Part shown: positions 19,557-22,700 of the stretch, in pieces
How the letters are laid out: each line of letters begins with the position of its first letter
Numbering within the stretch: position 1 is the first letter of the stretch
NCBI GenBank assembly: GCA_024279115.1
Contig: JAJRRW010000007.1
Location: 1 to 37,240 of the forward strand
DNA from: Alphaproteobacteria bacterium
Lineage (GTDB): Bacteria > Pseudomonadota > Alphaproteobacteria > Rhizobiales > JAKIUO01
Reading direction: 5' to 3'
DNA length: 37,240 nucleotides
Notes under the pieces: generated by a model
Told to the model about the DNA's origin: nothing
Database searches by the model: none
Seen by the model: only the letters and a program-made list of their open reading frames with translations
Program-made: the position numbers and the translations under genes

Positions 19557-19608
19557 CATATATCATTGAGCCCAAACTGGCGCCACCTAAATGGAAAGAG
19601 TGACCTTC

Positions 19609-20073
19609 ATGAGCGACATCGAAAACAGACTGAACGAGCTTGGCATTGCATTGCCACAAGCGGCCGCGCCCGCCGCCAATTATGTCCCCACGCTGATTAG
19701 TGGAAATCAGCTGATTATTTCAGGACAGCTGCCCATGCAGGACGGCGCTCTTAAAATCACCGGACAAGTGGGCGAGGATTTGTCGATTGAACAAGGTGTG
19801 GAAGCCGCCCGCCTATGCGCCATCAATATCCTGGCGCAGATCAAGCGCAGCCTTGACGGGTTTGATCGCTTTGAACGCTTGTTGAAACTTGGCGGTTTCG
19901 TCAATGCCCCTGCAAGTTTTACCGATCACCCGCAGGTCATCAATGGTGCCTCTGATCTGATGGTATCGGTTCTGGGAGATGCGGGCCGTCACACCCGCTT
20001 TGCTGTGGGGGTTGCGGGTTTGCCGTTTAATGCCGGCGTTGAAATTGATGCGCTTGTCGAGATCAAAGCCTAG
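19609..20073 (+). CDS. RidA/YjgF/UK114 family protein
   Basis: A 154-residue protein of the RidA superfamily. I chose ATG at 19609 with AAAGAG upstream; an ATG at 19591 would add six residues. The N-terminal FISGNQL-like strand (LISGNQLIISGQLPM), the helix with EQGVEAARLCAINILAQIK, and the C-terminal GRHTRFAVGVAGLPFNAGVEIDALVEI resemble the 150-residue RidA branch common in Hyphomicrobiales. Classical RidA enzymes hydrolyse reactive enamine/imine intermediates of amino-acid metabolism and carry a key Arg; the Arg in RFAVGV is at about that position. It heads a four-gene operon. Confidence 0.88.
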   Translation: MSDIENRLNELGIALPQAAAPAANYVPTLISGNQLIISGQLPMQDGALKITGQVGEDLSIEQGVEAARLCAINILAQIKRSLDGFDRFERLLKLGGFVNAPASFTDHPQVINGASDLMVSVLGDAGRHTRFAVGVAGLPFNAGVEIDALVEIKA

Positions 20074-20080
20074 GTCTATT

Positions 20081-20866
20081 ATGAAAAAAGATCTCGCCTG
20101 GATGTCGCAGCCATTTGCCCATCGCGGCGCGCATGATGTGAGCAACAATATTGTCGAAAACACCCGCTCCTCCGTGCAAGCGGCGCTGGATCTCCAATGC
20201 GGCTTTGAGGTTGACCTGCGGGCCGCCTCTTGTGGCACTATCATGGTCTTTCATGATGATCGCCTTGAGCGTTTGACCCACGCAACCGGGCGCTTTGACG
20301 AGCGGACCTGCGCGCAATTGCAACAGCTGCGGTTTCGCGACACCAGCGACCAAATGATGAGCCTGCAAGACCTGCTGGATCTCAACAAGGGGCGCGTCCC
20401 CATGCTGCTGGAAATAAAAAGCAACTGGCATTTTGATACGCACCGGCAGCATCAATTTGTCGCCAAAATGATCGACACTCTCAAAGACTATCACGGGGAT
20501 TTTGCCATCATGTCCTTTGATCCTGCCTTTCCTCGCCTGTTTCGACAGCTTGCCCCCCATATCCCGCGTGGACTGGTTTCAGAACAATTTCAAGCTCATG
20601 AAGAGTGGAAATCTCTTTCCTGGAGGCAGCGCATGGGCTTGCGCTTTTTATCATCAGCCCCCCATAGCCGCCCTGATTTTATCGCCTATGATATTGGCGC
20701 CCTGCCAGCCATTGCGCCAATGATCGCGCGGGGATTATTCAAAAGACCGCTCTTGACCTGGACCGTGCGCACCAAACAGCAACAAGTTCGCGCGCAAAAA
20801 TACTGCGACGCCATGATTTGTGAAGGCTTTGTCCCCGCAAACAACAAAATGACCCCGCCCTCATGA
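20081..20866 (+). CDS. Glycerophosphodiester phosphodiesterase family protein
   Basis: A 261-residue GDPD-type TIM barrel. The N-terminal catalytic HRG (FAHRGAHDV), the asparagine/glutamate ENTRSS, the metal ligands in FEVDLRA, and the second catalytic histidine in VFHDDRLERLT are all present. LLEIKSNW supplies a later glutamate ligand. No signal peptide is seen, so it is likely cytoplasmic, where it would release glycerol-3-phosphate from deacylated phospholipids. It starts seven bases after RidA and its stop overlaps the next start as ATGA. Confidence 0.92.
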   Translation: MKKDLAWMSQPFAHRGAHDVSNNIVENTRSSVQAALDLQCGFEVDLRAASCGTIMVFHDDRLERLTHATGRFDERTCAQLQQLRFRDTSDQMMSLQDLLDLNKGRVPMLLEIKSNWHFDTHRQHQFVAKMIDTLKDYHGDFAIMSFDPAFPRLFRQLAPHIPRGLVSEQFQAHEEWKSLSWRQRMGLRFLSSAPHSRPDFIAYDIGALPAIAPMIARGLFKRPLLTWTVRTKQQQVRAQKYCDAMICEGFVPANNKMTPPS

Positions 20867-22272
20867 CCTCAAAGCTCACTTCAAAAACCATCGACAGCTT
20901 TGAGGACGTCAAGGCGAAAGACTGGGATGCCTGCGCCAATCCGGACGACCTGCCCTACAGCCCGTTTCTGACCCATAGCTTCTTGTCAGCGCTTGAAAAA
21001 AGTGGTTCCGCGATCCCTGAAACCGGCTGGAAAAACCAGCATATCCTCGTCAACAATGCACAAGGACGCCTGCTTGGCTGCCTGCCGCTTTATCTCAAAG
21101 GCCATAGCCGGGGGGAGTTTGTGTTTGATCAAGGCTGGGCCGAGGCGTATCAGCAGGCGGGCGGACGCTATTATCCCAAATTGCTCGCGGGCGTACCGTT
21201 CACGCCCATTTCCGGGCGGCGCTTGCTGCTGCGCGGTGGACCACAAGATCAACAAGTCGCGGCCCTCTTGCTTGAGCACGCCATGGCCCTGGCCGATAAT
21301 TACCAGCTATCGTCCCTGCATATCAATTTCATCGACGACACCCAGCTCCCATATTTTGATCACCCTGATTTGCTGGTGCGCCGTGGCCATCAGTTTCAAT
21401 TCAAAAATAGCGGTTTTGATAATTTTGAGGACTTTTTGACCTCGCTTTCTTCGCGCAAACGCAAAGCCATCCGTAAAGAGCGCGCGCAAGCGGTGCAGGC
21501 CGGACTGGACATAAAACATCTGACAGGAGATGACCTTAGCCGTGAGCATTGGGATATTTTTTACAAATTCTACACCGATACGGGAGAGCGCAAATGGAGC
21601 ACTCCTTATCTCAGCCGCTCCTTTTTCTCGATGATAAGCGAGGGACTGGCTGACCAGATCCTGCTGGTGCTGGCCTATCGCGACGGCCAGGCGATCGCCG
21701 GGGCTTTGAATTTTATTGGCTCCGATACGCTGTATGGCCGCTATTGGGGCTCATGCGAATATCACCCGTCGCTACATTTTGAACTGTGCTACTATCAGGC
21801 CATTGACTATGCGATTGATCATGGTTTGGCGCGCGTCGAGGCCGGTGCGCAGGGCGAGCACAAGCTGGCGCGCGGTTATCTGCCAACGCAGACCAGCTCA
21901 GTCCATTATTTGCCAGATCGCGGATTCCGAAAAGCCGTTGCTCACTTTCTTTCCAATGAACAGCGCTATATAAAAATGGAACATCAGATTTTGAGCGAAC
22001 ATTCGCCATTCCGCAACACAATAGAGGAGCCGCACAGCGGCCAAAGGAGTAATATGGAGACCAGAACCTATCAGATAGAAGGCATGACCTGTGGCGGCTG
22101 CACCGGCTCGCTGGAAAAAAGACTATTGCTTGAAGAGGGCATTAAAGCCGCCAGCGCTTCGTTTGAAAACAATCAGTGTGAAGTGACGCTTGATCCAGCC
22201 CTCATTACTGATGAACGCATTGAGGAGATCACGGCAAAGGCTGGATTCGAGTTCAAGGGAAAAGCCGCATGA
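20863..22272 (+). CDS. DUF482 (FemAB-like/GNAT) protein fused to a heavy-metal-associated domain
   Basis: A 469-residue open frame. Residues 1-385 match DUF482, an acyltransferase-like family related to FemAB/GNAT: SPFLTHSFLSALE, SSRKRKAIRKERAQA, GRYWGSCEYHPSLHFELCYYQ-type core and RVEAGAQGEHKLARGYLP. The usual C-terminal end, EHSPFR, occurs at about residue 385. The frame then continues through 12 linker residues into a complete HMA domain (398-469) with metal motif GMTCGGC (Cys410, Cys413). The linker DNA contains AAAGGAGT just before an ATG at 22054, so it looks like a former intergenic region. Function of DUF482 is unknown. It overlaps GDPD before it and HIT after it as ATGA. Confidence 0.88.
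   Translation: MTSKLTSKTIDSFEDVKAKDWDACANPDDLPYSPFLTHSFLSALEKSGSAIPETGWKNQHILVNNAQGRLLGCLPLYLKGHSRGEFVFDQGWAEAYQQAGGRYYPKLLAGVPFTPISGRRLLLRGGPQDQQVAALLLEHAMALADNYQLSSLHINFIDDTQLPYFDHPDLLVRRGHQFQFKNSGFDNFEDFLTSLSSRKRKAIRKERAQAVQAGLDIKHLTGDDLSREHWDIFYKFYTDTGERKWSTPYLSRSFFSMISEGLADQILLVLAYRDGQAIAGALNFIGSDTLYGRYWGSCEYHPSLHFELCYYQAIDYAIDHGLARVEAGAQGEHKLARGYLPTQTSSVHYLPDRGFRKAVAHFLSNEQRYIKMEHQILSEHSPFRNTIEEPHSGQRSNMETRTYQIEGMTCGGCTGSLEKRLLLEEGIKAASASFENNQCEVTLDPALITDERIEEITAKAGFEFKGKAA
22054..22272 (+). CDS. Possible separate HMA copper-chaperone product from an internal start
   Basis: An ATG at 22054 lies in frame within the DUF482-HMA gene and is preceded by AAAGGAGT with ideal spacing. Initiation here would give a free 72-residue HMA domain with GMTCGGC, the size and form of CopZ-type metallochaperones. 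Whether the fused protein, the free domain, or both are made cannot be told from sequence. Confidence 0.5.
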   Translation: METRTYQIEGMTCGGCTGSLEKRLLLEEGIKAASASFENNQCEVTLDPALITDERIEEITAKAGFEFKGKAA

Positions 22273-22700
22273 GCTATGATGACAATAATATCTTTGCCAA
22301 AATTTTACGCGGGGAAATGCCAGCCCACAAAATTTTTGAAGATGACCAGACCTTCGCCTTTCTCGACATCATGCCGCGCTCAAAAGGCCATACGCTGGTG
22401 ATCCCCAAAAAACCGTCGGTCAATATGATGGATATTGACCCCGACACGCTTTGCACCCTCATTCGCTCGGTACACCGATTGGCACCGCTTGTCCGCAAGG
22501 CCATGGCAGCGGACGGCTTTGTGATACAGCAATTTAATGAAGCCGCGGCCGGGCAGATGGTGTTTCACACCCATTTCCACATTGTACCGCGCTATGCGGG
22601 GGTGGCGCTGAAACACGCCGCCAGCGAGATGGAAAATGAGGATGTTTTGTCAACGACTGCAGAACTCATAAAAAGCGAGGTCGACAAGCAATTGAGCTGA
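22269..22700 (+). CDS. HIT family nucleotide hydrolase
   Basis: A 143-residue HINT-type protein. The catalytic triad motif is HTHFHIV (His100, His102, His104), and the N-terminal half has the family pattern FAKILRGEMPAHKIFEDDQTFAFLDIMPRSKGHTLVIPK. HINT proteins cleave AMP from lysine or other amines attached to it. The ATG overlaps the stop of the preceding gene (ATGA), so it is the last gene of the RidA operon, and it converges on the hydrolase-fold gene with four bases between them. Confidence 0.94.
   Translation: MSYDDNNIFAKILRGEMPAHKIFEDDQTFAFLDIMPRSKGHTLVIPKKPSVNMMDIDPDTLCTLIRSVHRLAPLVRKAMAADGFVIQQFNEAAAGQMVFHTHFHIVPRYAGVALKHAASEMENEDVLSTTAELIKSEVDKQLS

Follow-up and report, generated by a model that had tools for sequence, protein, structure and literature searches.

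Organization of the locus

The window analysed here is the whole stretch of 37,240 nucleotides (positions 1–37,240, forward strand) of contig JAJRRW010000007.1 from the alphaproteobacterial assembly GCA_024279115.1 (genome G000), and it carries a gene in which a DUF482 domain and a metal-binding HMA domain are read in a single frame. This gene occupies 20863–22272 on the forward strand, starts with ATG, and encodes 469 residues, as an earlier note made from the sequence alone had described and as the list of open reading frames and the Pfam matches bear out. The FemAB_like domain (PF04339) covers residues 13–385 (20899–22017) and is followed by a freely evolving linker of 12 residues (386–397; 22018–22053), mostly of low model confidence, that lies between the end of the Pfam match and Met398. 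The ribosome binding site and ATG that the note had placed in the linker are indeed present: an internal Shine–Dalgarno (SD) sequence, AAAGGAGT, lies at 22043–22050 (duplex −8.4 kcal/mol against an assumed anti-SD sequence), and from the internal ATG an HMA reading frame of 72 residues, with a MTCGGC metal-binding motif, extends over 22054–22272. The sequence AAAGGAGTAATATG at 22043–22056 occurs as a single copy in the window and in none of 100 shuffles.

Four genes follow one another on this strand, namely a RidA/YjgF-family gene assigned by Pfam (19591–20073), a glycerophosphodiester phosphodiesterase (GDPD) gene (20081–20866; the start being the analyst's choice) whose stop overlaps the DUF482 start, the DUF482-HMA gene, and a histidine triad (HIT; PF01230) gene (22269–22700) whose ATG overlaps the HMA stop. 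The G+C content dips mildly to 0.47 at 22050–22349; because a stretch inside DUF482 dips about equally (0.48), no mark of foreign origin is seen in the base composition. RNA structure at the junction showed nothing beyond shuffled sequences in the three copies that were compared (z −0.22, −0.91, and 0.09).

Identity of the two domains

The match to PF04339 (FemAB_like), which we take to be the former DUF482, spans nearly the entire profile (positions 2–369 of 369; E 3.9e-152, 507 bits against a cut-off of 27). The HMA family, PF00403, matches residues 402–463 of the fused protein at E 1.6e-10, and the 72-residue piece alone at E 3.6e-12 (46.9 bits against the curated cut-off of 24.8). All 11 members of HMA alignment A1 match PF00403 at E 0.001, and the G10, M11, C13, and C16 positions of the GMxCxxC motif are invariant among them. 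The 72-residue piece scores below the cut-offs of the three CopZ models of NCBIfam—37.9 versus 91 for NF033795, 30.3 versus 95 for NF033794, and 21.8 versus 85 for NF047957—and the top NCBIfam match of the whole fusion by E-value, the MerT-MerP fusion NF033556 (41.3 bits, cut-off 180), covers positions 109–184 of 186 only, that is, the C-terminal part of the model. When the HMA piece was searched alone (22054–22269), the top E-value was that of the (seleno)protein family UxxU_metal_bind (43.3 bits, cut-off 95), at whose UxxU positions the window HMA has both Cys.

A structure model of the fusion was built from 21 input sequences, four of them covering DUF482, and has a mean predicted local distance difference test (pLDDT) score of 66.9 and a predicted template modelling (pTM) score of 0.50. 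In this model the HMA fold is predicted at pLDDT 86–97, and 124 of the 469 residues fall below 50, including residues 372–394 and several DUF482 stretches. Foldseek places FemX and related transferases at the top for the DUF482 part (7z5y and 1xf8; also Sbb17 and Sba18; E 1e-8 to 2.4e-6), with TM-scores of 0.23–0.30 over the query and 11–15% identity on a model that is weak in many stretches; CopZ, MerP, and CopA domains are among the matches for the HMA part. By sequence, solved structures come near DUF482 only at E 0.05 and above, FemX being at chance level (E 0.35). From its fold likeness the DUF482 part is read as FemX-like, a transferase to which a copper-chaperone-like domain is tethered. 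We infer that the linker is a flexible tether, with the fused HMA a carried metal domain and not a rigid part of the transferase, and that the HMA domain would bind Cu(I) or another soft metal.

Occurrence of the fusion within the genus

The in-frame fusion was found in all five genomes examined of the genus, which make up the whole family sampled, in a total of six copies, with two of them in G003. The other copies share 66–86% identity with that of the window over DUF482 and 72–81% over HMA. The spacing from the SPFR end of DUF482 to the HMA methionine is 13 residues in G000 and in one G003 copy, and 16 residues in the other four copies; the linkers therefore differ in length only by 9 nucleotides, and in no copy is the junction interrupted by a stop or a frameshift. 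The earlier note had held that a stop codon between the two domains in relatives would speak against the fusion. None occurs inside the genus, and two relatives outside it (L033 and L038) do have one; since stop-bearing relatives exist only outside the genus, they date the fusion and do not refute it. The G003 assembly is a metagenome-assembled genome (MAG) with 6% contamination, and its two fused copies (L032 and L040) differ from each other, with one on a contig of 3490 bases; either two species are present in the bin or the duplicate is true.

The putative internal translation start

Eleven starts in the window, two of them alternative starts of one gene, were scored for SD pairing. By strength the internal HMA start ranks first (−8.4 kcal/mol), the HIT start second (−5.5 kcal/mol), and the DUF482 start last, at +0.7 and without an SD sequence, as coupled translation from GDPD into DUF482 would predict. 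The HMA start also has the best SD among the in-frame internal ATGs in each of the six copies (−5.6 to −8.4 kcal/mol). Free HMA genes elsewhere (n = 6) have values of −4.1 to −6.8. The separate HMA gene of family f9 scores −6.6 and that of f48 −6.1. A conserved in-frame SD together with a start codon, the pattern used as the criterion for internal initiation, is present in 6/6 copies, and the internal site looks like the former start of an HMA gene that is still in use. Furthermore, the HMA stop overlaps the HIT start in five of the six copies, an arrangement that probably couples the translation of the two genes.

Selection at the junction

Across 15 pairs, the ratio of nonsynonymous to synonymous substitution rates (dN/dS) is 0.07–0.21 for the FemAB part and 0.07–0.22 for the HMA part; judged by these ratios, both domains are under purifying selection. 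For the linker the ratio was computable in 7 of the 15 pairs and, over few sites, is 0.83–3.65, a high range in which the linker residues look unconstrained. Despite this turnover, the reading frame, the HMA ATG, and an SD motif 4–7 nucleotides upstream are kept in all six copies, and the codon register of the SD shifts while the motif stays (CAA AGG AGT in the window, AAG AAA GGA in G002 and in the G003 copy G003b). In neutral simulations, the branch lengths of which were set by hand and the percentages of which are guides and not exact probabilities, the SD was kept in all six copies in 0.1–0.8% of runs and the ATG in at most 0.13%.

Unfused relatives and gene order

The earlier note stated that DUF482 is followed directly by HIT in relatives, and this order is indeed widespread. 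Twenty-six unfused loci were tabulated, one per genome, from the 53 genomes outside the genus with a DUF482 match; L031, in which HIT was not found, and L037, in which DUF482 lies next to another gene near the contig end, were left out. In 22 of the 26 loci HIT starts −4 to 127 nucleotides after the DUF482 stop. The exceptions have distances of 467 (L016), 643 (L018), 531 (L020; HMA between), and 1358 nucleotides (L033; HMA and another gene between). Judged from these gene orders, DUF482-HIT is the common arrangement and HMA is extra. The DUF482 tails of the 26 loci extend 3–17 residues past the conserved PF/PY.

A separate HMA gene after DUF482, with stops between, was found in G051 (f48; contig WGBT01000212 of a Hyphomicrobiales MAG) and in G012 (f9), where another gene precedes HIT. 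That gene, in locus L033, was membrane-transporter-like when its translation was judged by eye. In family f14, HMA immediately precedes HIT: stop and start overlap in G017 (L061), and 4 nucleotides separate the two genes in G064 (L052/L059). The DUF482 gene of G017 is carried by a different contig, and in G064 no DUF482 was found next to HMA. In both f14 genomes examined, HMA-HIT is, by its arrangement, a pair of its own. The proposal in the note that an HMA gene was inserted and later fused by loss of a stop is thus upheld in part: HMA lies between DUF482 and HIT, the frames are joined stop-free, the HMA start is kept, and L033 and L038 are unfused relatives with stops. HMA may have been inserted between DUF482 and HIT or may have arrived together with HIT: f14 has HMA-HIT pairs without DUF482 beside them, and the unfused cases are not placed next to the genus on the FemAB tree.

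Distribution outside the genus

Within the samples searched, from which HMAs too distant for the thresholds would escape, the fusion appears limited to one genus. Among 397 genomes of the order, no fusion outside the genus was found with a linker-plus-HMA query at E 1e-9 or with the HMA profile at E 1e-14. Elsewhere in the class (385 genomes; HMA profile, E 1e-12) and in the phylum (364 genomes; E 1e-14), the window apart, no frame of fitting length was found among the matches listed. Of the 30 loci kept from the class sample, the window alone has DUF482 or HIT beside HMA, and among the matches listed for a DUF482-tail-plus-HMA query, which hit 235 genomes of the class, it alone aligns into HMA. 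Only L063 and L065, among the 80 named loci listed, have both DUF482 and HIT beside HMA. In L131, from a Rhodocyclaceae MAG, an HMA gene and a DUF482 homologue (42%) are oriented towards each other at a distance of about 1 kb.

Interpretation of the fused gene

The fusion in 5/5 genomes of the genus, the unfused relatives, the kept internal start, and the domain identities, all evident at the sequence level, point to a genus-wide gene fusion that has kept an internal start and yields two products, a reading to which we give a probability of roughly 0.75. According to this proposal, a small, copper-chaperone-like HMA gene would have come to lie between the gene for the FemX-like (DUF482) transferase and HIT, and the stop between DUF482 and HMA would have been lost in frame in the ancestor of the genus. 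Ribosomes starting at DUF482 would then make the FemX-like-linker-HMA protein of ~53 kDa (mass from length), and those starting at the kept internal SD and ATG would make a free HMA of 72 residues (~8 kDa). Of the two sites the internal one is by far the stronger, so the free form would probably be the more abundant product. We infer from these features both that the two products are made and in what ratio.

A single indel or a sequencing error behind the fusion, which the note had raised on account of a TAG one base out of frame just after the end of DUF482, does not agree with the data. The TAG does lie at 22022–22024; six copies from five assemblies, with differing linkers, nevertheless all continue in frame across the junction. 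The joining of two genes by an assembly or sequencing error is accordingly ruled out as a candidate, its probability being negligible. It is improbable, too, that the fusion protein alone matters, with the HMA serving the transferase as a dedicated metal-binding domain and the SD and ATG inside the gene being a little-used leftover. The junction frame kept in every copy and the purifying selection on both domains are what such a dedicated domain would leave, but the SD and ATG have been retained amid linker turnover, the SD even across codon registers, and the internal site outscores the gene's own start. The converse, that the free HMA alone matters and that stop loss produced the fusion as a neutral by-product, tolerated at a DUF482 tail that is variable anyway, is unlikely but deserves more weight; it also overlaps with the two-product reading, since both products may be made under either. 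The variable tails of the unfused loci and the unconstrained linker fit a neutral by-product, as does the G002 copy (L034, G002:C54), in which an in-frame TAG at codon 194, within the DUF482 domain, precedes an intact HMA with its own SD. The joined frame, however, has outlasted synonymous divergence of 1.3–1.8 (G004 versus the others, FemAB part), and the linker has changed in length by 9 nucleotides without acquiring a stop; with indels included, the frame and an open linker survived in 0–0.6% of the simulated runs.

Several observations weigh against the two-product reading. Chance alone leaves the linker open in 19–28% of the runs simulated without indels, a point that also favours a by-product; with open linkers this common, the argument that selection keeps the joined frame depends on the indel assumption and the hand-set branch lengths. 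The six fused copies represent three linker types and not six independent cases. The anti-SD sequence used for all SD scores was assumed and not read from G000, and the score of the HMA SD is equalled at 2–11% of all positions in the gene. In G004, HMA and HIT lie without overlap. If the TAG in G002 is real, that genome would yield no more than free HMA and a shortened DUF482; the TAG may mark a pseudogene, may be suppressed, or may be an error of that single assembly, and it fits an internal start, yet it weakens the need for the joined protein everywhere. Finally, f9 and f48 do not group with the genus on the FemAB tree, 12 of whose 24 inner branches are open and which is too weak to root the fusion; as they are not sisters on this weakly supported tree, the separate state is a plausible intermediate and not a proven ancestor.

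Relation to known systems

The CopA(Z) chaperone of Escherichia coli is an HMA domain, and in CopA the HMA domain is N-terminal. The copA gene is reported to encode both a large copper protein and, by frameshifting, a copper chaperone (PMC9548414), and it appears to be the closest precedent for a single gene with two such products. Its free form arises by ribosomal frameshifting, whereas the window gene has a C-terminal HMA, a FemX-like partner, and putative internal initiation. Alternative in-gene starts that give a second, N-terminally truncated product are described for CheA, InfB, and CcmM in a further report (PMC11005335). Like those genes, the window fusion appears to have an in-gene start; unlike in those genes, it seems to be a start that formerly belonged to a separate downstream gene. 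To our knowledge, CheA, InfB, and CcmM are not recent fusions of operon neighbours. Gene fusion with a kept internal start is of a known kind, and the present case is modestly new.

As far as titles and the beginnings of abstracts tell, none of the papers found to name DUF482 deals with its function. Searches returned no paper naming PF04339, none joining FemAB with an HMA domain, and none on an internal ribosome binding site with gene fusion; those for internal initiation with a copper chaperone, or for HMA fused with an N-acetyltransferase, gave only papers that are unrelated by title. The locus may offer a snapshot of the fusion of operon neighbours without loss of the downstream product, in which a genus with the fusion, a freely drifting linker, and a retained internal start can be set beside relatives that lack the fusion; through it DUF482 also becomes functionally associated with a protein of the soft-metal-binding kind. 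It is conceivable, although quite doubtful, that the fused HMA makes the FemX-like transferase metal-responsive or supplies it with metal, that the balance between tethered and free HMA is set at the internal start, and that GDPD, HIT, and the transferase form a copper-linked envelope or nucleotide-repair module; if true, such a role would be the first handle on that of DUF482.

The FemX/FemABX aminoacyl-tRNA-dependent transferases resemble the DUF482 part in fold at the low identity given above. The HMA domains of CopZ, MerP, and the Cu-ATPases have the same HMA fold with M-x-C-x-x-C, and that of the window is attached to a transferase. The MerT-MerP fusion (NF033556) likewise has a C-terminal HMA on another protein, the partner there being a transporter by name.
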